Part shown: in pieces, positions 1,371 through 42,020 of the stretch
Position numbering within the stretch: the stretch's first letter is position 1
Layout of the letters: every line of letters begins with the position of its first letter
IMG/VR virus record: IMGVR_UViG_3300045996_001573
Span: 1-47,987 of that record
From: a virus
Reading direction: 5' to 3' (one strand)
DNA length: 47,987 nt
Translations under genes and position numbers: made by a program
The notes under the pieces: model-generated
The model's input: the letters and a program-made list of their open reading frames with translations, nothing else
Databases searched by the model: none
What the model was told of the DNA's origin: nothing

Positions 1371-3763
1371 TACGTGAATCTCCCAAGATACTGCGTAGTA
1401 CCATCATCTTTGATAAGATGAAGGTGCTTTCCGCTTAAGTTGCTCCACTGGCCGAAGTTGGCTTTGACACGAATCTGAGTACCAGTCCAGCTAACGGGAA
1501 TGCAAACTTCCTGTCCGTTCGTCACGCTGTTCCAGACTGCATTGTCGGTGATCATAATACGTGCCAGGGATGTGGCAGTATAGATCTCACCAATCTCAAC
1601 GATTGGCAGCAGCGGCGGTGCCGGCGTGCTACCCGTGTCATAGCCAATCACGGCCATACGAATACCGCGCCCCGTCACATCCCGCCAGGCATTGAACACT
1701 TCGTTCGAGCCGGCCGATGCAGTGGAGCGCACGCTGTTCGCCATCATTGGTTTGATGTGTCCAGCGTTGCTGCCTTCGGGGCAATCCACCCAAGTCTCGA
1801 TCACCGTCCAAACGTTTGAATCTGGCTGATGACCGCCGAACTTTCGACCGGCCGTGTGCGCAGGATCTAGATTGTATCCCATGCCGTTGCAGACAATCGA
1901 CGTAATGCGGTGTTGATCGTCCGGTGCCCAGAAGCGGAACCACTTAATTTCTTCATACGGAGGTTTCTGACTGCAACGCACAAAAATACGTGCAAACATC
2001 CGGCTGTATTCCGGCCCCGGATTTTGTCCACCCATGGCAATAATGCCGTCGAGAGCGCCATCGGTGTACGCTCCGCCGATGACAGTGCCTAGCCGATAAT
2101 GTCGCGTCGAGTACGCCGTGCGCGGATTAACGGTCGAGAACAGCATCGACGTAGGGCTGCCGGGAGCGGTGCTCTCGCCTCCCACGTCGACATAAGCCAC
2201 GCCTCGCGGAACATTCGCACCATTTGCATATCCAGCGTACCCCGAAATGTTATCAATGTTGTCGTACCACCAATGAGATGGTCCAACGCCAAAGTTAGTT
2301 CCAGAGATAACCAACTCAGTTTGATGTGTTAACGTCCCGCTCCAAGTTACCGTGGTTCCTACTTGATCCGCGAAGCTCTTGAATCGACCAACTCGAGTTG
2401 CAACTCCACTTGAATTCACGAAGTACAAATATTTGCCTTCGAGAGTGGAATGCAGCCCCTTTCTCAGCAAGAATTTGATATGAGTGTTATCCCATTCAAT
2501 TGGAACGCAGAAGTCACGAAACGGCGTTACACTATTGCCAGTATTCCACGTAACTTCATCGCTCACAATCACACGGCAGAGTGAATCATCAATAAGCGTG
2601 GGACCATAGAGCGCGGCTGATCCAACAGGCTCTAGATTATTGCTGATTTGATCGAAGCGCACCTGACGCCAAATAGTTTCGTAGAAGCTCGTAGTGCTGG
2701 TAATATATCCACTGACACCATTCAGAGGCTTCCAACCAGAACCGCCAGCGCTGGTCGGCCGCGCGCCGTTCAGCCACGGGATGATAACGCCATCCGCCAC
2801 GTTCAAAGCCGACGAGGGAGTGAACTCATATTCGAATCGGTGCCAGTTCTGCCCAAGCGTCGCAACAATACCAGCAAGGTCGGTCATTCCCGCTTGGGTG
2901 GGATCTCCTTCATTAGGAATATGCTCGACGTGAACATGAGCCACGAAGCCTGCTTGTCCACCTGCCTGATATTGCAGGTTGAAATAGATGCTACCATTAG
3001 GCGGCGCTGGGCTGCCAGTAGCAGTCCACAATCGAAACGATTTCAGGTTGCTTGCAATCGCATCCGTCAGCACCGGCCAGTTGTAACGTCTATGTGTGAA
3101 AACATAGCGAAACACCGTGCCGATCGGAAGATTAACTCCCCACGAACCATGTGAATCGTGCTTGGCGGAACGCATAACCCCGGTTCCCCCGGAGGGGGAA
3201 ACTTCTTCGGTGCTGAAAGTCTGTAGATCCTGGAACCCATTGTCACCGAGGAACACGCTCGTCCCGCGGGAATAAGTTGGATCGGGGTTGTAGCTCCCGT
3301 TCATGGGAAAATAGAACTGAGGCTTGCCGTCGCCTAACTTGGTACCAAAACCCGTGCCAAAGATTTGTACAATTTCTTGGTCCTGTAACACGCCGGAAAC
3401 AGTAAATGTCCCATCCGGAATAAAGCCAACGGCTCCGGACGGTACACTTGATGCCACCGTTACAGAACATACGTGCGTAGCAAAGAGTCCTTCGGAGTCT
3501 GTCACTCGAACAGAGATCGACCCCGAGGGACTGCCGTTTACTACGGTTAGAAGTCCCGTAGTGCCATTTATGCTGTAGCCGAGAGGTGGCGTGCCGACAA
3601 GGCTAAACGTGATCGTATCCCAGGGATGAGGATCACTAGCCTTAACGCCGAAGTCATACGTTCCGCCACCCGAAGGGAAGTTCAGGGTGGTTGGCGTGTC
3701 GACGGCCCACGCCGGAGGCAGATTGATTACGGGTGTATTAGGAGCCGCGAAAAAATACGCCAC
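1370..3763 (-). CDS. Receptor-binding/tail appendage protein with Ig-like and duplicated lectin-like modules, 797 aa
   Basis: Residues 8-105 form a putative Ig/cadherin-like domain of the He_PIG type (ASDPHPWDTITFSLVG followed by LGYSINGTTGLLTVV). The rest is an internal duplication. Each half has an entry strand (IFGTGFGTKLGDGKP; VISGTNFGVGPSHWW), a large jelly-roll-like segment, and a similar closing module (SDEVTWNTGNS...CVPIEW...GKYLYFVNSSG...RVGRF against TDNAVWNSVTNG...CVPVSW-like...GKHLHLIKDDG...YLGRF). Such architecture suits a carbohydrate-binding tail fibre. The start is a GTG at 3763 overlapping the preceding gene by 26 bases, with no strong ribosome-binding site, so the exact start is uncertain. 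Receptor binding is inferred from the modules and from late-operon position. Confidence 0.75.
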   Translation of the reverse strand: MAYFFAAPNTPVINLPPAWAVDTPTTLNFPSGGGTYDFGVKASDPHPWDTITFSLVGTPPLGYSINGTTGLLTVVNGSPSGSISVRVTDSEGLFATHVCSVTVASSVPSGAVGFIPDGTFTVSGVLQDQEIVQIFGTGFGTKLGDGKPQFYFPMNGSYNPDPTYSRGTSVFLGDNGFQDLQTFSTEEVSPSGGTGVMRSAKHDSHGSWGVNLPIGTVFRYVFTHRRYNWPVLTDAIASNLKSFRLWTATGSPAPPNGSIYFNLQYQAGGQAGFVAHVHVEHIPNEGDPTQAGMTDLAGIVATLGQNWHRFEYEFTPSSALNVADGVIIPWLNGARPTSAGGSGWKPLNGVSGYITSTTSFYETIWRQVRFDQISNNLEPVGSAALYGPTLIDDSLCRVIVSDEVTWNTGNSVTPFRDFCVPIEWDNTHIKFLLRKGLHSTLEGKYLYFVNSSGVATRVGRFKSFADQVGTTVTWSGTLTHQTELVISGTNFGVGPSHWWYDNIDNISGYAGYANGANVPRGVAYVDVGGESTAPGSPTSMLFSTVNPRTAYSTRHYRLGTVIGGAYTDGALDGIIAMGGQNPGPEYSRMFARIFVRCSQKPPYEEIKWFRFWAPDDQHRITSIVCNGMGYNLDPAHTAGRKFGGHQPDSNVWTVIETWVDCPEGSNAGHIKPMMANSVRSTASAGSNEVFNAWRDVTGRGIRMAVIGYDTGSTPAPPLLPIVEIGEIYTATSLARIMITDNAVWNSVTNGQEVCIPVSWTGTQIRVKANFGQWSNLSGKHLHLIKDDGTTQYLGRFT

Positions 3764-4199
3764 CAGTCAGTTGGATGTCGGAGCCGTCTGGGGTCACCAC
3801 CGCATCAAACAACGTCAGCGGGATGATTGCAGAGTCTGCACCGCCAGTCGTATCCGAATCGTAGCATACTGCGATCTTGGAAATCGCGTTGCCCGTCGCG
3901 GCCGACCACGTTACCGTCGGCAGACTCACGTCATACCGATCGTTGCCGTCGTCTGGTGCCGGCAGAGCCGCCAGGTCCGCATCCGTCAGGGTCTTGCGGC
4001 CCATCGTGGTCTGCTCGTTCGTCGTACCTGCAAGCACGTCCGCGAGCGAATCCTTGTCAATCAGGGTTGCATCTGCTTCGAGGCCGCTCGTTTCGATCGG
4101 CACCAGAATCAGAGCACTGTTCGCGGGATCGTTCGATTTGACTCGATTGTAGTACTCGACCACACGACCCTTTGCGATGTTGAATACGATGTTTGCCAT
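3738..4199 (-). CDS. Small virion protein, 153 aa
   Basis: The start chosen is ATG at 4199, preceded by AGAGGA at a good distance; an in-frame ATG 18 bases further upstream has no such site. The sequence begins MANIVFNIAKGRVVEYYNRV and has a short helical start, then an Ala/Asp-rich segment with repeated acidic patches (DADLAALPAPDDGNDRYDV), and ends in hydrophobic beta strands. Proteins starting in this way are common next to tail hub genes in uncultivated podovirus-like phages and are usually annotated as structural. It lies in a tight run of three small genes downstream of the tail hub protein. No enzymatic motif is visible. Confidence 0.7.
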   Translation of the reverse strand: MANIVFNIAKGRVVEYYNRVKSNDPANSALILVPIETSGLEADATLIDKDSLADVLAGTTNEQTTMGRKTLTDADLAALPAPDDGNDRYDVSLPTVTWSAATGNAISKIAVCYDSDTTGGADSAIIPLTLFDAVVTPDGSDIQLTGGVFFRGS

Positions 4200-4524: not shown

Positions 4525-4815
4525 TTATTCCCCCAAGAAGAACTTCATGGCCCGAGAGTTCTCATGAAACCCCGCTTCGACAAGCTGCCACATTCCACCA
4601 CGGTAGATGTATGTACCAGCGCCGCGGCCGGGATTCCACGTCACGCCATCAGCAATTCTCACCTCTCCTTCCACGGACTTCGGCGGAGCCGCATACGACG
4701 TAGCAAGGCGAAGGCTATCGCCCCCCTGCTCAAACGTTTCTGCAACCTTCCGAAGCTCCGCGGCAAACCAATACGGATCATAGGTCATCGGCACTGCACT
4801 GGGAAAATACTTCAT
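4525..4815 (-). CDS. Small conserved phage protein, 96 aa
   Basis: The protein begins MKYFPSAVPMTYDPYWFAAE, continues with a short helix (ELRKVAETFEQ), then a Gly-rich beta region (GRGAGTYIYRGGMWQLVEAG). The pattern 'one helix, then GxYxYRxGxW' is typical of short proteins found just after the tail hub gene in many podovirus-like genomes. Its stop and the next start are directly adjacent, and its start overlaps the hub-protein stop at 4815. Function is unknown; a virion or assembly role is inferred from context. Confidence 0.65.
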   Translation of the reverse strand: MKYFPSAVPMTYDPYWFAAELRKVAETFEQGGDSLRLATSYAAPPKSVEGEVRIADGVTWNPGRGAGTYIYRGGMWQLVEAGFHENSRAMKFFLGE

Positions 4816-6371
4816 TAGTACAGTCCTATTTCTTCAATTTCAAGATCGTATCGCTTGACTCGCCAAGCAAACTCCTCAGTCGAGGAGAACTTGACGCCAA
4901 GCATGCGACCAACCACGTCACAATCAATCTTTTGGTCAATCCCAATCACAAAGGGATACGGACCATAGACTGTTGGATCGGTCATCTGATCGTACGATGC
5001 CGTTAGGTAGACCTGGATTGTAGAACCTCGCGGCCCCTCGATGATCGGCCGAACTTCCTTCAACATCTTCACGGTGTTAGGACGCTCGAATCGAATGTGA
5101 TCCCGAGAAACATAGGCTTCGTATGGAGATCCATCGAAGGCCGAGGTCAATTCAATTGCGTAGGTCTTAACGTTCGTCGGACTTGCCAGCACCGTATTCG
5201 TCGACGGCAACGTAGAGATGTTCTGATTCCAAGTCACCGCGCCGGCCTGCCAGCCCTTCTGCAAAGTTTCCCAAGTGTTGGGCTGAGAATAGTTCACAGA
5301 TCCTGCGCAGCCGTGCACAACGCCGGGAAGCTCTCTCACTCCCCAAGTATTGTACTTCCAGTTCCAAACCAGAGCCAGCGTGCAGGTCTCATCGTTGACC
5401 TGGGGAAAGCAAATCCACAGCTCGTTGGCAGCTGGTGAAGGCATGGTAAAGGCTCGGCTCTGGAAATCCGAGTCAAGCTGCCGAAATAGCCACTTTCGAT
5501 TCCGTGCATCGATGACGGATTCAGGGGCTGTAGCTTGATGGACGTATACGTCGCCTCGACCCAGAACAAAGTGTCCACCTGGGAACTCCGTCACGCAATT
5601 CGTGCCAAGCGCTCCGCCGTAAAGGCCGGAGATCTTTTGGAAGCGGAAGATGAAGGGGCTGCCAATGAAGGAGACAGCGTAATATCCGCTCCGTTTATAG
5701 GCGATAAACTGCTCCCCTAACGCCAGTCCATCCATCAGCTCCGTCTGGTCATCCGCCAGGTCATATTCGCCCGCATCCTTTGTGGTATCCGTCACGTCCC
5801 ACGAACTCGGCAAGGTGCCAGGATCTGCAACGTGGGACCACTTCACTAAATGCGGATAATTGTTCCCATCTTTCGTAACGTTCAGTGCGATGAGATAATT
5901 GCGGAACGCCCGCATCACCTTACAGCGCACATTTGTGGGCCAATTTGTCAAATCCGCGCACTTGCCCGTGCCCGGCCAGAATTGCGGCAAATCGAAGCCA
6001 TTGTTCAGAATGACAATGCCCGAAAGCATCGTCGAATTCCACTTCGAATTTGGATCACCCGAATAATCCACATCCACGCCAGCGCTTTGCCGCGTGATAT
6101 TCGAGTGAATCAGGTCGGCGTCGATGCCATAAATCTTTTGCAGCCCCGCGTAGACCCACGCGTTTCCATTTACCGATAGGAAATTGGCCAAATGCCAGGG
6201 CTCTACGAGCGGCGTGCCGTTCACTGCAACGTGCCCGTACGCGCGCTCGGCAAATCCTTCGCGGAAAACGAAATTCTTCACCTGTGACCACGCGTTCGGA
6301 ACCAGCTCCTGAGGATGGATATCCAAAATCAGGCCGGCCTCGCCGCATTTATCGACTGGTACGATAGCCAT
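4815..6371 (-). CDS. Tail hub / packaged-DNA stabilisation-type virion protein, 518 aa
   Basis: This long all-beta protein has regular blade-like segments (YGHVAVNGTPLVEPWHLANF, NGNAWVYAGLQKIYGID, GIVILNNGFDLPQFWPGTG, QFIAYKRSGYYAVSFIGSP, HFVLGRGDVYVHQATAPESV). It resembles the large beta-propeller-like proteins that phages encode in place of the P22 gp10 tail-hub protein. Length (about 500 aa) and position, after the adaptor and fibre-like genes and before small tail genes, both fit. The stop/start overlap with its neighbours at 6371 and 4815 shows an operon. I cannot exclude a different structural role, since family assignment rests on fold style rather than on a signature motif. Confidence 0.7.
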   Translation of the reverse strand: MAIVPVDKCGEAGLILDIHPQELVPNAWSQVKNFVFREGFAERAYGHVAVNGTPLVEPWHLANFLSVNGNAWVYAGLQKIYGIDADLIHSNITRQSAGVDVDYSGDPNSKWNSTMLSGIVILNNGFDLPQFWPGTGKCADLTNWPTNVRCKVMRAFRNYLIALNVTKDGNNYPHLVKWSHVADPGTLPSSWDVTDTTKDAGEYDLADDQTELMDGLALGEQFIAYKRSGYYAVSFIGSPFIFRFQKISGLYGGALGTNCVTEFPGGHFVLGRGDVYVHQATAPESVIDARNRKWLFRQLDSDFQSRAFTMPSPAANELWICFPQVNDETCTLALVWNWKYNTWGVRELPGVVHGCAGSVNYSQPNTWETLQKGWQAGAVTWNQNISTLPSTNTVLASPTNVKTYAIELTSAFDGSPYEAYVSRDHIRFERPNTVKMLKEVRPIIEGPRGSTIQVYLTASYDQMTDPTVYGPYPFVIGIDQKIDCDVVGRMLGVKFSSTEEFAWRVKRYDLEIEEIGLY

Positions 6372-30015: not shown

Positions 30016-30192
30016 ATGCTGACAGATCAAGATAAACGTCTGTTAGATCGTCTCGATCCCGTCGATGTCATAGAGCACTATGGCGTGGCGCAACTCTTAT
30101 CCTTCGTCGATCCACTTCATGCCATCTCAATCTGGGGCTGGCTCAACACCTTCAACGCATTGGAAAAATATGAAGCTCATAAACCTGAGTGA
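30016..30192 (+). CDS. Small early protein, 58 aa
   Basis: It begins MLTDQDKRLLDRLDPVDVIE and continues HYGVAQLLSFVDPLHAISIW. It is acidic and helical with aromatic residues at the end. It overlaps the ParB-methyltransferase start by 23 bases. The ribosome site is weak, but codon use and coupling to the next gene support it. Function unknown. Confidence 0.6.
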   Translation: MLTDQDKRLLDRLDPVDVIEHYGVAQLLSFVDPLHAISIWGWLNTFNALEKYEAHKPE

Positions 30193-31456
30193 ACTGGTCG
30201 TTCCAGAGAACCGTCAGCGGAGAGAGTTCAATGAAAAGGCCCTCGAAGAACTTACCCAATCCATCCGTGACATTGGACTCCTCCAGCCCATCGTCCTCAG
30301 AAACGACGGCCGCACCCTTCTCGCGGGTGAACGACGAACTCGTGCTTTACGTCGAATCTTTGAACAAGATTCAACTACAAAGCTACATCATGACGGAGTT
30401 ACCTTCAACGGTAGTACAGCCCCTTACGTCCTTGCTTCGGAGCTATCTGAAGCCCAGCTTTTCCAAGCCGAACTCGAAGAAAATATCCGCCGTAGTGATC
30501 TTACCTGGCAAGAACGAGTTCGTTCCTTGTCTGAGCTTCATAAGCTTCGGTCCGGTCAAGCTGCGGCCATTGGGAAAGTCCAGACTTTCAAAGACACAGC
30601 CAGCGAAGTCCGTGGGGAAGAGGCCGAGGGTATACAGATCACGGAAATCTCGAACGCCGTCATCCTCGCAGACTTCCTAGACGATCCCTTTATTGCTGCT
30701 GCGAAGGACGAGAAGGAAGCTCGCAAGATCCTTCGCGACGAAATGAAGGACAAAGAGCGCCGCAAGCGGCAGCTCGACTTCGACGAGAACTCTGTCCCTC
30801 ACAAGCTTTTCTTGGACTCATGCCTAAGCATTGGTCCCGAATTCAACAACTTCTTTGATTGCATTGTTACAGATCCTCCCTATGGGATCGACATCCACAA
30901 GAAGGAAACTTTCGATACGCACTCTCACGAGTACGACGATTCGGACGAATACTTCTCTGATCTTCTCGATCGCCTCCCCTCCTTAATGCACCGGATCTGT
31001 AAGGAGGATGCTCATGTCTATGTCTTCTGCGACATCAGACGTTTCAACGATCTCTTTGTCGCTTTCGAACTTGGGGGATGGACGGTGTGGCCTCGACCTC
31101 TCATATGGGACAAAGGGAACACAGGTTCATTTGGAAATATCGAGTATGGCTTTAGAGCCTGCTATGATGCCATTCTTTTTGCTCGCAAGGGAGATAGGAA
31201 AGTTACTGCGGGTTATAGAGACGTTATCCCAATCACACAGCCTACCAACCTTCCCCACCCAGCCGGGAAGCCGTCACTCCTGTTCGCTGACCTCATCAAG
31301 CGATCATGCCTTCCAGGAGATAGAGTCGCGGATCTCTTTTGTGGACACGGTCCCATATTTCCCGCAGCTGTAGAGCAAAAGGTTATCGCGTTCGGTTGGG
31401 AAATCAATCCCAAGTATCATGCAATGGCATTGGAACAACTGGAGAAAATCAAGTGA
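30170..31456 (+). CDS. ParB-domain/DNA methyltransferase fusion, 428 aa
   Basis: Residues 1-120 are a ParB/Spo0J nuclease-like domain with the GERR box at 53-56 (LLAGERRTRAL) and ELEENIRRSDLTW. Residues 200-428 are a DNA methyltransferase: motif IV DPPYG at 235-239, then HPAGKP near 363, and motif I ADLFCGHGP at 387-395. The order (catalytic motif before the AdoMet-binding motif) is that of the beta class, which makes N6-methyladenine or N4-methylcytosine. The start at 30170 is chosen because the longer reading crosses the upstream gene. No restriction partner is nearby, so it is likely an orphan methylase that protects phage DNA or marks it. Confidence 0.88.
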   Translation: MKLINLSELVVPENRQRREFNEKALEELTQSIRDIGLLQPIVLRNDGRTLLAGERRTRALRRIFEQDSTTKLHHDGVTFNGSTAPYVLASELSEAQLFQAELEENIRRSDLTWQERVRSLSELHKLRSGQAAAIGKVQTFKDTASEVRGEEAEGIQITEISNAVILADFLDDPFIAAAKDEKEARKILRDEMKDKERRKRQLDFDENSVPHKLFLDSCLSIGPEFNNFFDCIVTDPPYGIDIHKKETFDTHSHEYDDSDEYFSDLLDRLPSLMHRICKEDAHVYVFCDIRRFNDLFVAFELGGWTVWPRPLIWDKGNTGSFGNIEYGFRACYDAILFARKGDRKVTAGYRDVIPITQPTNLPHPAGKPSLLFADLIKRSCLPGDRVADLFCGHGPIFPAAVEQKVIAFGWEINPKYHAMALEQLEKIK

Positions 31457-31873: not shown

Positions 31874-32002
31874 ATGTCCCGCAAGAAGCGAAACAGGAGG
31901 TTGAAATGTGAGTGCGATGGATGGTGGTTTCCCCATCGCATTGGATCTCGGTCTCTCAATCCTCGTTGGCCCGGCTGTCTCAGGAGTAAGCCGAAGTGGT
32001 AA
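31874..32002 (+). CDS. Tiny Cys-rich protein, 42 aa
   Basis: ATG 31874 opens a short frame starting MSRKKRNRRLKCECDGWW, followed by FPHRIGSRSLNPRWPGC, so it has a basic head and a CxC...C group. The 'CxCxGxWFPHRxGS' style resembles small zinc-binding phage proteins. Its own ribosome site is not evident. AGGAGG at 31895-31900 instead precedes a GTG at 31908 in another frame. It overlaps the polymerase gene start by seven bases. Confidence 0.5.
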   Translation: MSRKKRNRRLKCECDGWWFPHRIGSRSLNPRWPGCLRSKPKW

Positions 32003-33645
32003 GAAAAATAGTTCGTGGGAGCAAGGACGCTTCTGTCTTAATTTTGGGCGAAGCACCGGGCGTGGACGAAATGCGATCCGGCCTGCCCTTCGTCGGCTCT
32101 TCAGGACGAGAGCTGTCGAAGATGCTTCGAGAAGCACAGATCGACGAAGAGCAATGCTTCATTGCCAATGTATGCAACGAACGGCCGCCCGATAACAACT
32201 TCTCAGCATGGATGCCTGAGACAAAGAAAGAAGCTGCAGCCGTCGGCGCAACGTGGTACAAGAAAAAATGGGTCCTACCGCCAGTACTGGAAGGACTCCG
32301 TCAGCTCGAAGAAACACTAGCAGAGCTACCAAACCTCCAGCTCGTCATCCCTCTGGGCAACGTTCCCCTTTGGGCCATGACAGATCATTGGGGCATCACG
32401 AAGTGGCGGGGCTCTCAGCTCAAGTTAAATTCGACGCGACAGCTTTCCCTCGTTCCTACCTACCATCCGGCCGCGGTTCTGCGGACGTGGGAATGGCGGT
32501 GGATCGCCGTTCAGGATCTTAAGCGTGCCAAGGAGTGGCTCAACACTGGACTAAAGGTGCCTGAGTATGAGTTTCTTCTTCGTCCTTCTTATAGTAGTGT
32601 CCTGTCTTTTCTCAATGGACTTATTCATGAGCTTGATAATCGCAGACTACCACTCGCTGTCGACCTGGAAACACGTGGTCGCCACATTGCTTGCATCGGG
32701 CTTGCTGACAGCAGTTCTCGTGCGCTTTGCATCCCATTCATGACAATGACCGGACCTTATTGGTCCGTCGAAGAGGAATGCAGGATCGTCTGGTTCCTCT
32801 ACAAAATACTAACGCATCGTAATTGCGAAGTCATAGGGCAGAACTACTTATATGATCGGCAGTACATCGCTCGGAGATGGGGGTTCCGTTCGAACCTTTC
32901 ACATGACACCATGGTCAAGCATCACCTTGCATTTCCCGGAGTATCAAAGGGACTTGATTTCATATGTTCAATCTACAATCATTTTTATTCGTACTGGAAA
33001 GACGAATCAAAGGATTGGGATCCAGCCATCGGTGAGTCACAGCTCTGGGAATATAACTGCAAAGACGCGGTTGGTACCTTTGAGGCTAATGGTCACCTCG
33101 ATCATACAATCAAAACTTTTTGCCTCGAAGACCAATTAAAATTCCAGATGGACACCGCGGAGATTGCATTTGATATGATGCTCCGCGGAGTTAGGGTTGA
33201 CCAAGATTATAAGATGGAGCTGCACTATAAGTTGTGTGGAATGCTGAAGGAACAGCTGGATCTGATTAAGCTCCTCACAGGAGTGGAACTTGAACCCTCG
33301 TCCCCGAAGCAGGTCCACTCCTTCTGCTATGGTGTCCTTGGATTACCGCACATTTATAAGTCTGATAAGAAGAAAAAGACGAGCCGCTTAACTGCGGATA
33401 AGGAAGCAGTTGAAGAGTGGCTTCAAGTCTGCGATCCACTATTCAAGCCCATACTTCAAGCTATCGTAGACTACAGATCTCTTCAAGTTTATAACTCTAC
33501 CTTCGCCCTCGCTCCGCTTGATGACGATGCACGGTTCCGTTGCTCGATCAACGTAGCCGGGCCGGAGACATTCCGCTGGTCCACCAGTGAAGATGCCTTC
33601 GGCTACGGTACAAACATGCAGAACATTCCACGAGTTGATGACTGA
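31996..33645 (+). CDS. Uracil-DNA-glycosylase-like domain fused to 3'-5' exonuclease and front half of family A DNA polymerase, 549 aa
   Basis: Residues 10-175 resemble family 4/5 UDGs: GEAPG at 18-22, FVGSSGREL at 32-40 and HPAAVLR at 157-163; the usual N-terminal Fe-S cysteines are absent. Residues 215-365 are a DEDDy exonuclease: Asp223/Glu225 (AVDLETRG), Asp287 (NYLYDRQYI), Tyr353/Asp357 (YNCKDAVG). Residues 370-549 are the thumb and early palm of PolA, with RLTADKEAVEEWL and TFRWST...TNMQNIP, then stop. Motifs A, B and C are missing here and are encoded two genes on (34156-34932). A stop codon upstream limits the start to GTG 31996, which has CAGGAG upstream. Confidence 0.88.
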   Translation: MVRKIVRGSKDASVLILGEAPGVDEMRSGLPFVGSSGRELSKMLREAQIDEEQCFIANVCNERPPDNNFSAWMPETKKEAAAVGATWYKKKWVLPPVLEGLRQLEETLAELPNLQLVIPLGNVPLWAMTDHWGITKWRGSQLKLNSTRQLSLVPTYHPAAVLRTWEWRWIAVQDLKRAKEWLNTGLKVPEYEFLLRPSYSSVLSFLNGLIHELDNRRLPLAVDLETRGRHIACIGLADSSSRALCIPFMTMTGPYWSVEEECRIVWFLYKILTHRNCEVIGQNYLYDRQYIARRWGFRSNLSHDTMVKHHLAFPGVSKGLDFICSIYNHFYSYWKDESKDWDPAIGESQLWEYNCKDAVGTFEANGHLDHTIKTFCLEDQLKFQMDTAEIAFDMMLRGVRVDQDYKMELHYKLCGMLKEQLDLIKLLTGVELEPSSPKQVHSFCYGVLGLPHIYKSDKKKKTSRLTADKEAVEEWLQVCDPLFKPILQAIVDYRSLQVYNSTFALAPLDDDARFRCSINVAGPETFRWSTSEDAFGYGTNMQNIPRVDD

Positions 33646-34187
33646 TGTTATCTGGTATCGCCCTTCTCGACGGCCTGCCGTTTCGAGTTCAATGCTCCAT
33701 TGTCCTACGCAAAGGGGACGGGGACATCTACATCTCCGGCCCTGTTGATAATACAATCGAGGAGAGTATCAATGAATCAATCGGATTCGCCAACACAATC
33801 TGCGACCACGAGGGCATTAAGTTCCCGTCACTTGGAAATAAAAATATCCTTGTCCGAATCGGACTCCCCCTTTCGCATGCCCCTATTGTCGGTCCAAGCC
33901 TCGGACTTCTCCTTGGACTGCAACTTACATTTGCCATCACAGGACGACGTCCTCCGTATCATGCATTTGTTACAGGAGAACTTAATTCAAAGGGCGATGT
34001 CTTTGCTGTTGGAGGAATTGCTGCGAAGCGCAAAGGAGCAGCGGAGCTTGGTGGAGAACGCCTCGTCCTCCCAGCTTCTCAGCTTGATTTCTTCTCAACC
34101 GAAATCATCCAAATCCCCGTGACCTCGATCTTCGAGGCTTATTCCATTCTGACTTATGGAGATAAGAGTGGAAAAACCCAACGTTAG
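33645..34187 (+). CDS. Stand-alone Lon-type (S16) protease domain between the DNA polymerase halves, 180 aa
   Basis: ATG 33645 overlaps the polymerase stop (TGATG). The sequence matches the proteolytic domain of Lon: ISGPVDNTIEESINESIGFA, then VGPSLGLLLGLQL with Ser85, GRRPPYHAFVTGELNSKG, and VFAVGGIAAKRKGA with Lys128. The Ser-Lys distance of 43 residues equals that of E. coli Lon (Ser679/Lys722). There is no AAA+ ATPase part and no N-terminal substrate-binding domain. The protein might process the polymerase fragments, the fused UDG part, or a host factor. The 3' end overlaps the second polymerase gene by 32 bases. Confidence 0.85.
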   Translation: MLSGIALLDGLPFRVQCSIVLRKGDGDIYISGPVDNTIEESINESIGFANTICDHEGIKFPSLGNKNILVRIGLPLSHAPIVGPSLGLLLGLQLTFAITGRRPPYHAFVTGELNSKGDVFAVGGIAAKRKGAAELGGERLVLPASQLDFFSTEIIQIPVTSIFEAYSILTYGDKSGKTQR

Positions 34188-34932
34188 AAAGATGTTCATT
34201 CCAGATAAGGACCACATTATCTGCGAGGTCGACCTCAAGCAGGCCGACGCCCAAGTCGTAGCGTGGGAAGCACAAGATCCCATCCTCATGGACCTATTCT
34301 CAAGGGACGACGTCGATGTTCATACCGAGAATGCCAAAGTCGCTTTCGCTGTGGATTCAATTACAAAACACATGCGACAAACTTCAAAGTCGCTTGTCCA
34401 CGCTACCAACTACTACGGAAAGCCGCGTGGAATTGCAAAGAAGATTGGACTTACAACGTCGCAAGTTACAGTATTTCAAACCCGGTGGTTTCGAGAACAT
34501 CCATGGATTCGAGAGTGGCATCAACGGGTTGAACGAGATCTTATGCTCACTCGAGTCACTCGCAACATCCTTGGATTCCGCAAAATCTGGTTCGAGCGCC
34601 TCGACAACTTGCTGCCAGAAGCCCTTGCTTGGATTCCACAGTCAACTGTGGCGCTTGTCATCAATCGCGGTATGCAGAACATTAAGCAAAGAGTTCCAGA
34701 TGTTGTGCCCCTTTTGCAGGTCCACGACTCATTTCTCTTCCAGCTTCACCGAGATGCATTTTATGCTAACTTGCCCAGGGTGCAAGACGCAATGGCAGTG
34801 GCCCTTCCCTACCCTCGACCCCTCGTAATTCCGGTAACACTTAAGACTTCACTTATCTCATGGGGAGATATGCTCAGCACGACCTGGGACGGCCAGTGCA
34901 AAATCGACGGGAAATACCGGCCTGTTATCTGA
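34156..34932 (+). CDS. Back half of family A DNA polymerase (catalytic palm), 258 aa
   Basis: Motif A is ICEVDLKQADAQVVAW with Asp26. DVDVHTENA follows at 52-60 (the DxHT motif). Motif B is RQTSKSLVHATNYYG with Arg74, Lys78 and Tyr86/Tyr87. Motif C is LLQVHDSFLF with His190-Asp191. The sequence starts just where PolA proteins continue after their NIP motif (VRKMFIPDKDHIICEVD), so it completes the 549-aa protein. ATG 34156 lacks a good ribosome site; GTG 34168, four codons later, has GGAG seven bases upstream and may be the true start. The two halves must assemble to make an active enzyme. Confidence 0.88.
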   Translation: MEIRVEKPNVRKMFIPDKDHIICEVDLKQADAQVVAWEAQDPILMDLFSRDDVDVHTENAKVAFAVDSITKHMRQTSKSLVHATNYYGKPRGIAKKIGLTTSQVTVFQTRWFREHPWIREWHQRVERDLMLTRVTRNILGFRKIWFERLDNLLPEALAWIPQSTVALVINRGMQNIKQRVPDVVPLLQVHDSFLFQLHRDAFYANLPRVQDAMAVALPYPRPLVIPVTLKTSLISWGDMLSTTWDGQCKIDGKYRPVI

Positions 34933-34951: not shown

Positions 34952-36289
34952 GTGTCTAGAAACTTCGACAACTGGATCAACGGCTACATAGATTACACTG
35001 ATAATCTCGAAGCCCCACTTGTCTTTCATCTTTGGACCGGGATTGCCACAATCGCAGGCGCACTTCGAGGTAAGTGCTGGATCGACATGGGCTACTTCAA
35101 GTGGAAGCCCAACTTCTTTGTTGTCTTTGTCGCACCGCCGGGAATCGTCTCCAAGTCCACCACGTTAAACGTGGGGATGGGGCTCCTCCGTCAGGTAGAA
35201 GGGGTGCATTTCGGCCCCGAATCTGCGACTTGGCAAGCAGTCACTGATGCATTCCGTGAAGCTGAAGAAGTAGTTCCCCAGATCGCTGATAAGATGTCTG
35301 CGTTGACTATCGTCGCAAGCGAACTTGGCACCTTTCTCGACCCAAAGAATCGAGAGATGATCGATATCTTGAACGACCTCTGGGACGGCCGCTCCGTTCC
35401 GTGGCAGAGGCGCACTAAAGGAGAAGGCACAACGGAAATCCAGAACCCATGGCTTAACTTCGCTGGTTGTACTACTCCAGCTTGGATTCAAGAAAACTTC
35501 CCCCAATACGCTATCGGCGGCGGCTTCACCAGCCGAACCGTATTCGTCTACGGGGAGGAGAAGCGTGCGCTGATCGCATATCCTAAGCTCGAGATGGATT
35601 CCCTTGGCAACCAATACGCTAGCGATCGCCTCAAACTGGTCAACGATCTGCGTAAAATATCCGCGCTGGCGGGCGAGTTCGTACTGACGAATGACGCCAT
35701 TGAGTGGGGCAAGGATTGGTACGCACGGCACTGGAAGCACGCGCCCCAGAATCTGAACCTTGAGTTGTATGGGGGATACATCGCCCGGAAACAAACCCAC
35801 ATTCATAAGCTTGCGATGGTCATTTCGGCCGCTGAACGGGACGATATGGTTATTCATCCAAGCGATCTCGCTAGAGGACATGAGCTTATCACCTCATTGG
35901 AACCAAGTTTCGCACGAGTGTTCTCGGCCCTCGCCGACAACAGGGAAGTTCATTATTTGGCAGCGTTGATCAAACTCGTTGAGCGGCATCGCAAGATTTC
36001 CAAGGTCGAGCTTTGGAGACAGATGATGCACATCATGACACACGATCAGTTCGAAGGTGCCCTTCGCGGCGCGCTCATCGCTGAACGCGTCCGCGAGTTC
36101 TCCAACGGTTCAGGACACTTTATCGTTGCACCCCATAAATCTGATCAATCTCCTGGTATAACCGGCGATACCCCTTCTCACTCGGTAGTCCCATTTCCCT
36201 CTGATTTATCTTCTTCTGCCGAGCCTTCATCGACCGACGAATCTTCTCACTTGTCAGCCGCAGCATCGGGTCCGGGACTTCCTCATTGA
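34952..36289 (+). CDS. DUF3987-type replication protein (helicase/primase-associated ATPase), 445 aa
   Basis: The start is GTG 34952. It opens with helical text (NFDNWINGYIDYTDNLEAPL), then FHLWTGIATIAGALRGKCWI, a pattern of DUF3987 and primase-linked phage proteins. A degenerate P-loop, APPGIVSKST (61-70), lacks the second Gly. A DILNDLWDGRSVPWQRR stretch follows, then helical regions with a possible winged-helix near residues 330-380 (HYLAALIKLVERHRKISKVE). It probably supplies the replicative helicase or primase function for the split polymerase. The last 56 residues are low-complexity Ser/Pro-rich and overlap the convergent giant virion gene. Confidence 0.75.
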   Translation: MSRNFDNWINGYIDYTDNLEAPLVFHLWTGIATIAGALRGKCWIDMGYFKWKPNFFVVFVAPPGIVSKSTTLNVGMGLLRQVEGVHFGPESATWQAVTDAFREAEEVVPQIADKMSALTIVASELGTFLDPKNREMIDILNDLWDGRSVPWQRRTKGEGTTEIQNPWLNFAGCTTPAWIQENFPQYAIGGGFTSRTVFVYGEEKRALIAYPKLEMDSLGNQYASDRLKLVNDLRKISALAGEFVLTNDAIEWGKDWYARHWKHAPQNLNLELYGGYIARKQTHIHKLAMVISAAERDDMVIHPSDLARGHELITSLEPSFARVFSALADNREVHYLAALIKLVERHRKISKVELWRQMMHIMTHDQFEGALRGALIAERVREFSNGSGHFIVAPHKSDQSPGITGDTPSHSVVPFPSDLSSSAEPSSTDESSHLSAAASGPGLPH

Positions 36290-39200
36290 AGTCTAGCTTG
36301 GCCTGATTTGCATCCGCCATTAACTCCGGATCTTGGGAGCGCTTAGCAAATGCCCAATTCTCCATCACCATTGCTTGCCGCATGGTCCAGTATCTGCGCA
36401 AGTTTTCCTTCGCTCCGATCACTTCGTAGGCTTCGCTTATTTTCGTCTGCTGGAAGCCGAGCATATTCAGGGCCAAGCCCATACGATCCTCGGGGTTGTT
36501 CGGATCCCAAGTTGCAATGGCTCCACCACCTCGAAACTCTTCTGCACCAACAGAAGTTCTCCTCGCAGCTTGACTTGCCGCTTTCAGTGCCGATGGCATC
36601 GCACGTTCCCAAACCTTCCACGTATCAGGATTCTGGTCGACCATGGCTCGGAAGAATCCATATCCAACTCCCGCAACAGGCCCTAGAACATCTACTAGAG
36701 TTCTGCCGAACTTCTTATCCGGATCACGTTCCGTGGCTGTCAGTTTGTCTGTCCCAGGTAACCATCGTCCAACTCCAAGAGAGCCCGATAGATCTACCTC
36801 TGGAACTGGAACTCCGGCCAAAGACAAAAGGTGCATAGGACCGAGACCGTAATGTTTACTCCAACCATGCAAGAGCATTTCTGGGTTGTCAGTAATATTC
36901 TGTGCCGCACGACGAAGCTCCGTGCGGGCGTCCGTATATGGATCTTCCCACCCAAGAGCTTCTTTGAGCTCCCGCGAAGTCCAATCGAACAGATCGAGGA
37001 TGTTGTCCGCGAATGGAATTCCTTGGTATCCGGCAGCGAGGAGCATCATGACCCAGACTCGAAGAGCCGTTTTCTTTCCTTTGCCCCCTCCCATGAGGTA
37101 TGCCAATCCTTGCATATAGCTCCAGAAGAGGAAGAATACGCTCTTTTTTCCGCGTGCGAAGGGCGCTCTGTTCCACTTCGCATACTCGAACATCGCGCTC
37201 TGGACGGCCTCTTTAGCCTCGGCGAATGCCTGCTCCTCGTTCCCGCCGTTCGCTTCCAGAGCAAGTCTCCTCGCAGCTATAAAGGTTACATATCTGTTGA
37301 TAGATTCGACGTGTCGAAACATCCATGACCCGGCCCAGGCGATCTGATTCAATCTCCTCTGTGCATCCGTCTCAGGAGCAATCCGTTGCAGTACACTACT
37401 TTCACTAAAACCTGCAAGTACAGTGGCAAGGCTTTCGTCCAAGAAGCCTTCCTCAATGCCCCGCTGGATCGATTTCTCGAGCGCAGACTTCGGGATATCC
37501 TTACTGCGCAAGATCCTGAAAGCTTCTTTGTACGAGCTCGACAGTGCAGCCAAAGCTTTCGCCTCATTAAAGCGTGCACTCAAATACGGGAAGGCGACCA
37601 TCGGTACCTGTGTAAGGTTGACCATTGCGGACTTAACATTGAATCCAAGGTACCACATGAACCCTACGGCACGAAGCCCCGCCCAATCGTTTTCGGGATT
37701 CATGATATATTTGTAGTGCTGTCCCCAATAATCTCGAATAGTTCCCGCATTTATGCCTGCTTCATCAGCATATTTGCGAACTTCACTGAGCGCAGCATCC
37801 ATATCCTGGCCATTCTCGATACGCGCAATATGCCCGGCCGCGTTGAGGAAGTAACTTGCATATACGCGCGTTGCATCCTGCGAGAAGCCTTTCAGGCCCT
37901 TACGGTGGACCATGCTCTTCAAGAATCTCTGGCCGGGAGACTTAGTGAAGTAAATCTCCTTGAGAAGCTCCTTCTGCGCTTCAGTCAAATCCAAGTGCTC
38001 TTGCAACACCTCGTACAGAGCAGGCGGCATTCCTAGGAATGTGAACTCCTGATCCGACACCAGCCCCGTGCCGATGTCGAAGTTCTTCTGGTCGTATTCC
38101 TTCGGGAAGGACTTCAGCGCATCCTGCATATCCCTATAACTTTCATAGGTTTCGAAATGGACCATCTGGCCTTTCGCGTTGTCTCGTGGCCCGTAGTATT
38201 TGGTGCCATCAAGGACGACAGTATTCTTCGCTCGGACCCAAATTGCATAACGACCGAAGCGCATATACGGGAAGTAATCCCGCTTACGCAGCTCGTTGAT
38301 CTGGGCGTGTACCTTGAGCAGCCGCCCACCAAGCTCCAAGTTCTTGAGCTCTTGCGTGAGCATATCTTGGAACGCCTTTTCATTTTTCCCGTTAGCAGCA
38401 GCGGTACGGTCGGAAAGATAGGCCTTGTAAAGTTTGTCAGCGTACGCGGAGTCGTCGACTTCCTTCCTGATAGTCTGCTTAATGATCGCGTTCTCAAGCT
38501 GGTCGAGGAGAGAACGGAAGCTCTCTCGAATCTGAGCGTAGATTCGAAGGCCGTGCTCATCAACGATACCATGCTCTTTCAGCATGGCCTCACGTTCCTC
38601 TTGAGTAAGCCCTTCGCCGGTCATCTTAATCTTCTTATCGCTTGCTGCCGTGATGCTGAGCAGAGCTTCGGCCAGCCGGTTGGATTTCGTTTTATTGTAG
38701 GTCTGCCAGTCCTCGAGTAACGTAACAGGAGCATTCTGCAATGAAGCCTTTCGAGCCGCCCATCGCTGAACAAACTTTATGTAGTCTGCTACTCCTGGAA
38801 CGTTATATCGTTCAGCAAATTGCAGAGGCTGCAAGAATAGACCCGCGGCTTTTGCAGTCCACACCGACGAAAACGAGTCAACAGATCGCTCTAGCACAGC
38901 AGCGCTGGCTTTGGCAGGCATGATCTCATTGCCCCTGCCAAGCATTGTGTTGATTGGTCTCGTAGGCTCGCTACGAAGTGCGGCCGCCGTATCTCGCAGC
39001 AGCTTCACCACATCCTTCTCATTAAAGGGCAGGGCCTTCTGCGCCGCATCCTGCCAAGCATCGGGAAGGATTCGAATCAGATTCCTGATCCAAGCTCGCA
39101 CGGTCGTAACGACCCGATCCAAGAAGCTCTGTTCAAACGGCTCGAGCTCATTCCCCGAATACTTCTTCTCCGCAATGTAGGCAATTGCCTCATCTGCACT

Positions 39201-42020
39201 GAACACGTCGGCAAGCCCCGTTTCTCCTTCCTTGCGGTACTTGTATCCTGATGGAGACTTGCCTTCACGTTCAATCTGCTTCAGCGCCTCGCGATTGTAC
39301 TGTGCGTAGGCCCACATCACTCGCGCCCAATTCTCCGTGGATAGCGTGGCCCGCAGTCCGAAGTGCGCAAGCATTTCGTGCACTAGCGTCGACACCGCTT
39401 CGGCCGGATGATTATGTGCATCAATATTGATGTACACAGTTCCAGGCTTACCAGCACTAAACACTCCTCGCGACCGAATCAGCATCCTCTTTTCCTCATG
39501 CGTCATATCCTTTGACGACATAATTTCTGCCACAGACATAATTACCAACTTCGGTCGAATCATGAAGGATCTCCAGACCTTCTCCACCGCCTTATACGCC
39601 TCAGCTACAACAGGCGACTGCATGACGCCAGTCGCTACGTCGGCGGCTTCCTCGGCCGTCGAATAGTATCCCAGCGAATACGATACACCTTCATGCTGCT
39701 TCACGGCCTCGTAGCCAGAGTCTCGCTGAAAGATGATGGCATTCTGTTCGACATTAATCGCTCGAACCTTCTCGGGATTCTCCTTCGGAATGATTCGCCA
39801 GCCCGGCTTCTCGATGGCGAATCTCTGGCCCAGCACGGCCGGCTGAACATTTCGCATCTTCATGATGGCGCGAGTCGCCTTTGAATACCTAATATTCTTT
39901 CTCGCCTTCTTCAGAAGCGTAGCTTCCTCAGCCGAGAATTGATCAGCTTGGTCCGCAGGGACCGTCTCATAGATCCCCACTCGCGTGTTGAGATCCACAC
40001 CAGTCCTTCTCTTAGCATCCAAACGATCAAAGATTTCCTGCTCGCGTGTGCTAAGCCCATCGAACATATCCTTCTCAGCCAAGCTATCATATTGCTTTGC
40101 CTCGAATACAGTTAAGTTCGGATAGCTCGGAGCTTCTTTCGTCGCTTGCGCGGCGTTAGTAATTTCCCCGAGAGTCTCATCAATTTTCTGCCCAACGACG
40201 CTGACAGTCTCCCCTTCATTTGGATTGTTAACTCCTTTCAGGTTCGCGAGTCTCGCCAGTCTCTCGTCCATCGCGGCCAGCGTCTTAGCCGCAGCCTTCT
40301 TCATCTCTCCATCCGTGGTGCGATAGTTATCCTTATTGTTGATAAATTCATTCCTTGCATCGAGCAGCTTCATCATGTCAACATCGTTGACGATCATAGA
40401 AACGGCCGCTTCGCCTTCCGGATTTCTCAGTCCACTCGGCTGCTTCTTCGGTTTAATCTGCTCGATCTGCACCACGGCCTGTTCAATCGGAGTCGCTGGC
40501 TGCGGGATGCTCATAGCCATCTGGCTGTGCCCATCCGGCTGGGCCGCGACGTGCATCCCATATTCATCAAACACGTAGCTCTGGGACTTCGCATACACCG
40601 CGGCCGTAGCACCCTGCTGCGCCGTTCCCAAATCTGGATACACTCCTAACTGGTTCCCATAGACATCGAAGGCTTCGAAGCCTTGCGGCGTCGCCATGAT
40701 CTGGGCCTTGCCTGCATCCACATTGTTCGTCGGCGCGTCCAAATACCACGCATCTCCGCGCTGCTGCCAGCCCGGCATGATCGTCGTGTAGTTCGCTGTG
40801 GAAGGCGGAGCAGCAACCGTGTCTGAAAGCGGGTCATATTTAACCTGCATCTGCTCCTTGACGATCCGCATATAATCATTTGCGGACGTCTTAATTGCAC
40901 CAGTCTTACTGTCGTACAGATTACGAAAGTCAAAGCCGCTCGGAGCCTGCGGATCCGCGCCGCTCGGAACATTCTTGAATTCGAAGTCCGTCGGAGGCTG
41001 GAACGTCAGCTGCTTTGGCGTTTCCGCTTGCTGCAGATTCTCATCTACTTCCGTAATCCCGGGAGGCGGAGGAGTTCTCGCTGGAGCATATAATCCAAAC
41101 ACGCCAAAAAGGCTCGCACCCGCTGCCGCGTTGTAAAGCTGGGATTTTTGATCATCCGTAATAGGACCATCATATCCAGTGAAGAAGTTGTCGAGTTCGA
41201 CATTGATGATCTCCTGCATCGTTTCCGTAGGGACTTCTGATGCAATCAAGACCGCGGCATTTCCAGCCGCCCTCTTCAAATATCCCGCTTCACTGAGCTT
41301 TCGAATTATTGCAGATTCAAACGGCTTCGCGATACCTGTAGTTTTTGCCAGTGTCCAGAACGGGATGAAGTCCAGCATGGCCTTTCCAAGGCCGCTTCCA
41401 ATCACCCTGAGATCAGTGATATCCGCGTTATTCTGCTGTGCAATTTCGACGGATTCACCTGTCATCTGTGCCGCGTCAGACGCGAAGGCCGTACCGTAGC
41501 CAGCGACCTTTGCGGCCGTGGCTCCAGCTCCGAGCGCCCGTGCTCCTAGTCCTGCGACACCGCCAGGGATGGCGATGCTCGCAAGCATGGGGACCTGTTC
41601 GCCAAGCGTCTCAATCGCCCAGGTCGCAAAGTCTCCGGCATCCTGAATGTTCTCGATGCCCGGCACGGCCCGTGGATATTTCTCACCCGCGGCCTTCCAG
41701 TCCTGTGCCTTGCGGCTAAAGTACTCCGCGAACTGTGGAATGCTCAGCGCCTGCGATGCAAGCTGGCCGGCATTCATAATATTCGCGCCAGTATTGTACG
41801 TCCCACGCTTCACCGAGGACACGAATCCCGGTGAATTGATGGGCTCGCTCGGCTGTCCCGCATCGGGTTGAATCCCGAGGTAGTCGTGTAAGCTCATTCC
41901 TCCTTCAGGAATTCCCAGGACTTGTCTTAGTCCTGGGTCTTTAACATCAACCCACATCGTACGAACACGATTGGGGTCTTGTGCAGTTTTACCAAACCAC
42001 TCTTCGGGATTGATACCCAT
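36120..42020 (-). CDS. Giant internal virion/DNA-ejection protein with zincin-like and LPD38-like regions, 1966 aa
   Basis: An Ala/Gly-rich hydrophobic segment lies near residues 150-190 (SIAIPGGVAGLGARALGAGA). A HExxxH motif (STLVHEMLAHFGLR, near residue 880) is typical of the zincin-like part of large polyvalent phage proteins. Long helices follow. Near residues 1620-1680 is an LPD38-like region (KKSVFFLFWSYMQGLAYLMG). Length and last position in the late operon fit internal head proteins ejected with the DNA, like T7 gp16. They may form a channel and cut the cell wall or host proteins. The 3' end overlaps the convergent DUF3987 gene by 170 bases. Confidence 0.88.
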   Translation of the reverse strand: MGINPEEWFGKTAQDPNRVRTMWVDVKDPGLRQVLGIPEGGMSLHDYLGIQPDAGQPSEPINSPGFVSSVKRGTYNTGANIMNAGQLASQALSIPQFAEYFSRKAQDWKAAGEKYPRAVPGIENIQDAGDFATWAIETLGEQVPMLASIAIPGGVAGLGARALGAGATAAKVAGYGTAFASDAAQMTGESVEIAQQNNADITDLRVIGSGLGKAMLDFIPFWTLAKTTGIAKPFESAIIRKLSEAGYLKRAAGNAAVLIASEVPTETMQEIINVELDNFFTGYDGPITDDQKSQLYNAAAGASLFGVFGLYAPARTPPPPGITEVDENLQQAETPKQLTFQPPTDFEFKNVPSGADPQAPSGFDFRNLYDSKTGAIKTSANDYMRIVKEQMQVKYDPLSDTVAAPPSTANYTTIMPGWQQRGDAWYLDAPTNNVDAGKAQIMATPQGFEAFDVYGNQLGVYPDLGTAQQGATAAVYAKSQSYVFDEYGMHVAAQPDGHSQMAMSIPQPATPIEQAVVQIEQIKPKKQPSGLRNPEGEAAVSMIVNDVDMMKLLDARNEFINNKDNYRTTDGEMKKAAAKTLAAMDERLARLANLKGVNNPNEGETVSVVGQKIDETLGEITNAAQATKEAPSYPNLTVFEAKQYDSLAEKDMFDGLSTREQEIFDRLDAKRRTGVDLNTRVGIYETVPADQADQFSAEEATLLKKARKNIRYSKATRAIMKMRNVQPAVLGQRFAIEKPGWRIIPKENPEKVRAINVEQNAIIFQRDSGYEAVKQHEGVSYSLGYYSTAEEAADVATGVMQSPVVAEAYKAVEKVWRSFMIRPKLVIMSVAEIMSSKDMTHEEKRMLIRSRGVFSAGKPGTVYINIDAHNHPAEAVSTLVHEMLAHFGLRATLSTENWARVMWAYAQYNREALKQIEREGKSPSGYKYRKEGETGLADVFSADEAIAYIAEKKYSGNELEPFEQSFLDRVVTTVRAWIRNLIRILPDAWQDAAQKALPFNEKDVVKLLRDTAAALRSEPTRPINTMLGRGNEIMPAKASAAVLERSVDSFSSVWTAKAAGLFLQPLQFAERYNVPGVADYIKFVQRWAARKASLQNAPVTLLEDWQTYNKTKSNRLAEALLSITAASDKKIKMTGEGLTQEEREAMLKEHGIVDEHGLRIYAQIRESFRSLLDQLENAIIKQTIRKEVDDSAYADKLYKAYLSDRTAAANGKNEKAFQDMLTQELKNLELGGRLLKVHAQINELRKRDYFPYMRFGRYAIWVRAKNTVVLDGTKYYGPRDNAKGQMVHFETYESYRDMQDALKSFPKEYDQKNFDIGTGLVSDQEFTFLGMPPALYEVLQEHLDLTEAQKELLKEIYFTKSPGQRFLKSMVHRKGLKGFSQDATRVYASYFLNAAGHIARIENGQDMDAALSEVRKYADEAGINAGTIRDYWGQHYKYIMNPENDWAGLRAVGFMWYLGFNVKSAMVNLTQVPMVAFPYLSARFNEAKALAALSSSYKEAFRILRSKDIPKSALEKSIQRGIEEGFLDESLATVLAGFSESSVLQRIAPETDAQRRLNQIAWAGSWMFRHVESINRYVTFIAARRLALEANGGNEEQAFAEAKEAVQSAMFEYAKWNRAPFARGKKSVFFLFWSYMQGLAYLMGGGKGKKTALRVWVMMLLAAGYQGIPFADNILDLFDWTSRELKEALGWEDPYTDARTELRRAAQNITDNPEMLLHGWSKHYGLGPMHLLSLAGVPVPEVDLSGSLGVGRWLPGTDKLTATERDPDKKFGRTLVDVLGPVAGVGYGFFRAMVDQNPDTWKVWERAMPSALKAASQAARRTSVGAEEFRGGGAIATWDPNNPEDRMGLALNMLGFQQTKISEAYEVIGAKENLRRYWTMRQAMVMENWAFAKRSQDPELMADANQAKLDFNEEVPDPMLRLTSEKIRRSMKARQKKINQREMGLPSEKGYRRLYQEIDQIYGVQR

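Follow-up and report, generated by a model that had tools for sequence, protein, structure and literature searches.

A recurrent split in one loop of a phage family A DNA polymerase, with a Lon-type gene among the cargo between the halves

Phage enzymes encoded in two pieces with another gene between them are already known. In Aeromonas phage Aeh1 the nrdA gene is split, mobE lies between the halves, and the two products assemble into an active enzyme (PMC2988022). Aeromonas phage 25 has a polymerase split into genes 43A and 43B, whose products co-purify with polymerase activity (PMC2988022). A split family A DNA polymerase with a small open reading frame (ORF) in the gap is likewise on record: the Methylophilales (OM43) phages MEP401 and MEP402 encode theirs in two ORFs with a small ORF between, an arrangement that is common in the group and that the authors tentatively ascribed to an intron (PMC10580990). 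Here we describe a polymerase locus in the virus record IMGVR_UViG_3300045996_001573 (47,987 bases; this whole stretch is called the window, and all coordinates are in its numbering), in which a family A polymerase is cut in two and a gene for a stand-alone Lon-type proteolytic domain lies between the halves. In the literature searched (open-licence papers only) we found no report of a Lon, dUTPase or ribonucleotide reductase (RNR) gene between polymerase halves, and no candidate phage protease that would work without ATP and lies in a replication operon. Within that literature the new elements are the repeated cuts at one loop, an explanation for them in terms of a Shine–Dalgarno (SD) sequence, the range of cargo in the gap, and the Lon cargo itself.

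The N-terminal half of the window polymerase ends in NMQNIPRVDD, and its TGA stop codon (33643–33645) shares one base with the ATG of the Lon gene (33645–33647), forming TGATG (Table 1). Its match to the Pfam model DNA_pol_A takes in only the start of the domain, its first third (8e-6, alone below the gathering score), and the C-terminal half covers positions 137–366 of that model (PF00476, 3.7e-25) and keeps both catalytic aspartates, those of motifs A and C. Alignment with intact relatives shows the halves to be complementary parts of one enzyme, with no sequence lost. An earlier note on this DNA had placed the cut after the NIP motif and before motif A, and the ORFs, the domains and the position of the stop codon are as it described. 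It had also predicted that the genes are translationally coupled through overlaps on both sides of the Lon gene. That prediction stands, as does the TGATG overlap, but the second overlap is probably 20 bases rather than the 32 proposed: the C half more likely begins at GTG 34168 than at ATG 34156, because the GTG has a GGAG 6 bases upstream and matches the starts of the relatives' C halves.

We gathered relatives by scanning IMG/VR and genomes with alignments as queries, and added annotated phages; in IMG/VR neither the Lon protein nor the C half returned a match as a single-sequence query, and the relatives surfaced with alignment queries. The resulting 247 loci (L numbers below) collapse at 95% C-half identity to 154 non-redundant ones, mostly from IMG/VR. 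The polymerase is intact in 85 of these, split in the same loop in 68 and cut off in one. Among named phages, the polymerase is intact in Microcystis phage Mel-JY34 and in ctMlz233, and the isolate Vibrio phage VS-ABTNL-3 has the same cut as the window, with an unrelated 184-residue protein between the halves. The split is not an assembly error, because the same cut is found in 68 of the 154 non-redundant relatives, including that isolate; the earlier note, which had dismissed a sequencing frameshift because of the overlaps, was right to do so. Split N halves mostly end in N(L/M)QN(I/L/V)PxGxxE and a stop codon, typically NLQNIPKGDEE, and in split C halves PN(V/I)R follows the start after a few residues, typically as M..LPNVRK.

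The junctions between the halves range in length from −4 to 2,899 nt, and stop and start overlap as ATGA or by one base in 43 of the 68. The halves could in principle be joined again at the RNA or protein level, through a group I intron, an intein or a programmed frameshift. An intron has been suggested for MEP401 (PMC10580990), and the two halves in the window happen to share one reading frame. Yet the junctions vary freely in length and frame, most of them have a stop, an SD and a start of their own, and the window has neither a match in Rfam nor an intein domain in Pfam. We consider a joined product very improbable, and we reject an intron at the window junction, where Rfam has no match. 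Since one would not at first expect an essential gene to be split, the locus might also be taken for a pseudogene in a phage replicated by another polymerase. However, motifs and reading frames are kept in both halves at all 68 loci and the junction carries a signal of selection for SD (below), which makes a decayed polymerase scarcely credible.

The cut lies in a loop. In the standard Klenow numbering, NLQNIP occupies residues 675–680; matched to solved structures, the C halves begin at residue ~687–689, and the cut maps to about 682–687, between NLQNIP and RRIRQAF. In the domain layout of established PolA structures, it parts the uracil-DNA glycosylase (UDG), exonuclease and thumb from the palm and fingers. 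For the intact relative L034, an AlphaFold2 (AF2) model (786 residues, 38 sequences; pLDDT 94, pTM 0.91) has a fold that matches Klenow and other PolA structures. Its lowest-confidence block of ten residues (70), at 531–540, belongs to the linker that joins NIP to LPNIRK.

Related polymerases with a different cut site occur in Caulobacter phage Kuura (L005 4950–8354) and in ctLwi270 (L008 1727–4364). Both were rejected as examples of the same split, the cut falling between the exonuclease and polymerase domains, and in Kuura two small ORFs lie between the exonuclease-side and polymerase-side parts.

In trees built without the linker, split and intact polymerases are intermingled. The split state needs 16 changes in a 146-row tree, at least 10 of them forced by strongly supported branches, and 12 changes in a 56-row IQ-TREE set, at least 9 of them forced by well-supported branches. 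A single split clade is rejected by the approximately unbiased (AU) test in the 56-row set (p 3e-60), so that fission and/or re-fusion has recurred at this loop. Re-fusions are likely to be among these changes, for example in L124 and L066, which are intact polymerases nested in split clades.

The linker codons suggest why this point should be cut again and again. PKGDE-like linkers, with codons that may look like an SD sequence, are already present in many intact members of the family: P-K-G-D-E in its SD-like form reads CCNAARGGNGAYGAR, and the SD codons in NIPKGDEE read AAGGGAGA. An SD core is encoded in the tail at 65 of 68 split loci versus 34 of 71 intact linkers, and the first glycine codon after NIP is purine-ended in 52 of 61 split loci versus 1,028 of 2,364 background glycine codons in the same ORFs; as the loci are related, the p-values of both comparisons are optimistic. 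In intact linkers the ending of this codon is at background. We propose that a stop or frameshift in SD-like linker codons could leave a stop codon, a ribosome binding site and an ATG close by, and thereby give translationally coupled half-genes at little cost. Fission, and probably re-fusion too, would recur at one point because the linker codons can serve as SD.

Once split, the junction would be an ordinary operon boundary, able to accept coupled cargo. This slot is empty (gap <90) in 12 of the 68 split loci. It holds dUTPase in 19, RNR in five, an HNH-type endonuclease in four (L016, L024, L088 and L116), MazG-type and Lon cargo in three each, a methyltransferase and a deoxyribosyltransferase in two each, and an RNase_T exonuclease and DUF3310 alone in one each; in 17 the cargo has no family assignment, and one dUTPase locus with an added HNH-type ORF is counted under both classes. 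At another locus a DUF3310 protein accompanies the dUTPase, and at one locus a nuclease gene accompanies the RNR. All three Lon matches, all five RNR matches and 22 of 26 dUTPase matches lie inside the slot. The Lon gene is thus one occupant of a recurrent slot, since the same cut also occurs with an empty slot or with dUTPase, RNR, HNH, MazG and others, and the earlier note's view of the split and the Lon gene as a single event or system is not supported. Of the gene order whose recurrence it proposed to check, the split recurs in 68 of 154 relatives and Lon between the halves in three, the other slots differing. Of the arrangement that it would have counted against its reading, an intact polymerase with Lon elsewhere, the first part is observed and the second is not: the intact relatives exist, and around these 85 polymerases (flanks up to ~4.5 kb each side) we found no Lon, no RNR and dUTPase once.

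Slot contents also bear on how the split began. A homing endonuclease might have split the gene first, as the precedent of mobE in Aeh1 nrdA suggests (PMC2988022), and later been replaced, Lon being the replacement; the HNH-type ORFs in four slots fit such a history. But these are only four of 68, the 12 empty slots are too short for any remnant, the cargo of the window is Lon, and the SD signal in the tail is enough to explain fission. We therefore regard an endonuclease origin as unlikely, if one of the two more serious alternatives. The polymerases of L088, with an HNH-like ORF in its slot, and L089, with an empty slot and an ATGA overlap, are near-identical.

The RNR cargo, of roughly 570 residues, is found in L113, L115, L137, L152 and L249, which form one supported clade, with a staphylococcal-nuclease-like gene as a second occupant of the L115 slot. 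The polymerase N half of the window carries a fused UDG, and dUTPase is the commonest identified cargo in the relatives; the common theme may be uracil exclusion.

The Lon protein of the window scores 41.7 bits against Pfam Lon_C (PF05362, 1.2e-10; gathering score 21.1) and matches Lon and LonB structures in the PDB, with Ser85 and Lys128 aligning with the Lon dyad region. Only the proteolytic-domain portion of the Lon models matches, the AAA+ ATPase part being absent from the 180-residue protein. These results bear out the earlier note, which had recognized a Lon domain with the dyad at the Lon spacing and no ATPase. Lon cargo occurs in three phages: the window, L018 from IMG/VR (64.8 bits against PF05362, above the 21.1 cut-off) and L248, whose contig was assigned to an Ignavibacteria genome bin but is probably viral judging by its neighbour genes. 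The L248 protein matches only a ChlI/RadA-type model, just under its cut-off (24.6 against 27). Further IMG/VR scans for Lon returned just the L018 contig again, and a Lon-like gene considered in VS-ABTNL-3 was rejected, the cargo there being unrelated to Lon. The three polymerases form one clade (support 100 in the 146-row tree and 99 in the IQ-TREE set), and the loci share a ParB-methylase gene upstream and a DUF3987 primase-like gene downstream.

Within this trio the N halves are 50–52%, the C halves 45–55% and the Lon proteins 31–35% identical, and Ser85 and Lys128 are invariant with a spacing of 43. Because the dyad is invariant at such low identity, the sequences suggest that the cargo is probably a maintained ATPase-free Ser–Lys protease. 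The earlier note's alternative, a mobile-element remnant, is unlikely for a gene that is fixed in its slot across a clade with C halves as diverged as these and that keeps the dyad. Lon-type domains can also function without proteolysis, as that of RadA does, and the Lon cargo might be a RadA-like scaffold or nucleic-acid-binding module: its profile also matches RadA (1e-7), and L248 matches the ChlI/RadA-type model, not Lon_C, and has part of the GGI motif missing. A non-proteolytic role is possible in L248 itself, because it is the most diverged of the three and matches just that model, below the cut-off. For the cargo as a whole the invariant dyad at Lon spacing in three of three proteins argues against such a role, which we think doubtful.

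The Lon-type protein could instead act on the polymerase, trimming a chain end, removing a half or limiting the enzyme's lifetime, so that its location would be functional. Its predicted coupling with both halves and its fixed slot position across a diverged clade speak for this; however, of the 68 split relatives 65 keep this split with no Lon at all, the N and C ends of the Lon phages resemble those of other split phages, and slot cargo is generally unconnected to polymerase processing. We judge the polymerase to be an improbable target, less probable than a scaffold role. The protein would most likely cleave, or bind, a separate target during replication, and the gene would most simply have been gained once, inherited vertically and expressed together with the polymerase.

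Two of the Lon slots hold further ORFs. In L248 a 76-residue PhD/YefM-like antitoxin ORF (4767–4997) adjoins the Lon gene, and in L018 a 68-residue hydrophobic, probably membrane-spanning ORF (3712–3918) lies ahead of it.

We therefore favour, with a probability of roughly 0.7, a two-chain polymerase with an SD-prone fission loop and a recurrent cargo slot, in which the Lon-type protease is coupled cargo. Chain 1 would comprise UDG, the proofreading exonuclease and the thumb, and chain 2 the palm and fingers, with the cut in the flexible loop of the palm that joins NLQNIP to the strand leading to motif A. The chains would associate after translation, as is suggested by the precedents of Aeh1 NrdA and phage 25 gp43A/43B (PMC2988022) and by the maintenance of both halves. 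The slot would take in chiefly enzymes of DNA-precursor metabolism, along with some homing-type endonucleases. Several points weigh against this reading. The queries came partly from split C halves, so that the 44% of loci that are split is not a population frequency, and most loci are metagenome contigs. The trees are unrooted, which makes gains and losses of the split indistinguishable. The tail of the window, CGAGTTGATGACTGATG, is without the SD core found in 65 of 68 split relatives, and coupling there must therefore rely on the stop/start overlap. For the Lon protein, an AF2 model built from two sequences reaches a pLDDT of 36.7, and the dyad geometry is read from sequence alignment alone.

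Table 1 Features of the polymerase locus in the window
Feature	Position	Strand	Basis
AGGAG, likely ribosome binding site for the N half (start GTG 31996)	31982..31986	+	Sequence
Polymerase N half, 549 aa, UDG, 3'-5' exonuclease and thumb/first part of PolA domain	31996..33645	+	ORF, Pfam, same end in 68 relatives
UDG domain, aa 8-168	32017..32499	+	Pfam PF03167, 5e-21
3'-5' exonuclease domain, aa 205-368	32608..33099	+	Pfam PF01612, 1.1e-8
NMQNIP motif, cut 4 codons downstream	33613..33630	+	Sequence, alignment of relatives
TGATG, N-half stop sharing one base with the Lon-gene ATG	33643..33647	+	Sequence
Stand-alone Lon (S16) proteolytic domain, 180 aa, slot cargo	33645..34187	+	Pfam Lon_C, PDB Lon/LonB matches, homologues in L018 and L248
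Ser85 (AGC), putative nucleophile	33897..33899	+	Invariant in three Lon cargos
Lys128 (AAG), putative general base, 43 residues after Ser85	34026..34028	+	Invariant in three Lon cargos
GGAG, likely C-half ribosome binding site, within the Lon gene	34158..34161	+	Sequence and relatives' starts
Polymerase C half (palm and fingers), likely GTG start; alternative ATG 34156	34168..34932	+	Pfam DNA_pol_A, 3.7e-25
Motif A DLKQADAQ, catalytic Asp; Glu710 -> Asp	34231..34254	+	Alignment
Motif C VHDS, catalytic Asp; Glu883 -> Ser	34720..34731	+	Alignment
DUF3987 / phage primase-like gene, conserved downstream neighbour	34952..36289	+	phrog_14296, 2e-79; also in L018, L248
ParB-N6/N4 methyltransferase gene, conserved upstream neighbour	30080..31456	+	Profile matches; also in L018, L248

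Two further features of these genomes were recorded. The polymerase clade has a histidine at Klenow position 762 in 119 of its 122 detected members (34387–34413 in the window), accompanied by HDS in motif C and DLxxADxQ in motif A. A survey of viral PolA proteins lists Phe, Tyr and Leu at position 762, and a text search of that survey found neither 'histidine' nor 'His762' (PMC6302109). On the reverse strand, positions 36120–42020 of the window encode a 1,966-residue protein with DarB-like antirestriction similarity; in L018 and L248, too, the primase-like gene is followed by a large ORF in reverse orientation.

As a rule, gene fission is observed a single time for a given essential enzyme; here one polymerase loop has been cut, and probably rejoined, repeatedly. 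Examples with empty and occupied slots are close enough for comparison, and the idea that linker codons act as a ribosome binding site gives a concrete hypothesis for the cut point, making this a direct test case for the passage from one enzyme to two subunits. The family also offers a natural split site in family A polymerases, which could serve split-enzyme design, a search handle in the form of a slot with many partner genes of unknown function, and a candidate ATP-independent phage protease within a replication operon. A broader proposition is that in a widespread phage polymerase family the loop ahead of motif A serves as an evolvable point of fission, because its conserved linker codons double as a ribosome binding site, and that it has made a two-subunit enzyme many times and a standing slot for changing partners (dUTPase, RNR, MazG, endonuclease, Lon) coupled to polymerase synthesis, one clade having a dedicated ATP-independent Lon protease as its partner; this we regard as evenly balanced.

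The locus resembles Aeh1 nrdA/mobE in that an essential phage enzyme of DNA metabolism is spread over two coding regions separated by an unrelated gene. There, however, the insert is a homing endonuclease and the event single, whereas here a family A polymerase has recurrent cuts at one loop and its cargo is mostly not an endonuclease. The 43A/43B genes of Aeromonas phage 25 likewise encode a split phage replicative polymerase, but one of family B, with a seg endonuclease and an untranslated insert. MEP401 and MEP402 share the two-ORF family A polymerase with an ORF between; theirs belongs to another polymerase clade without UDG, the cargo has 77 residues, and the cut falls later, just before motif A, the N half ending in SSSPNLQNFDGEIKTLFLSRYGE and the C half beginning with MILNADAKALEW. 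Lon-type domains without the Lon AAA+ ATPase are known in birnavirus VP4, CalpL, SepM and RadA, and in this respect the cargo is like them; their contexts differ, and profile similarity past the S16 core is weak or absent (VP4 0.0008, with L018; SepM 0.097; CalpL 0.35). The isolate vB_VspS_VS-ABTNL-3 (L003, PVS_27-29) agrees with the window in its UDG–exonuclease–PolA family and cut site and has cargo of similar size, and differs in the identity of that cargo, a phage protein to which proteins in many further phages are related.

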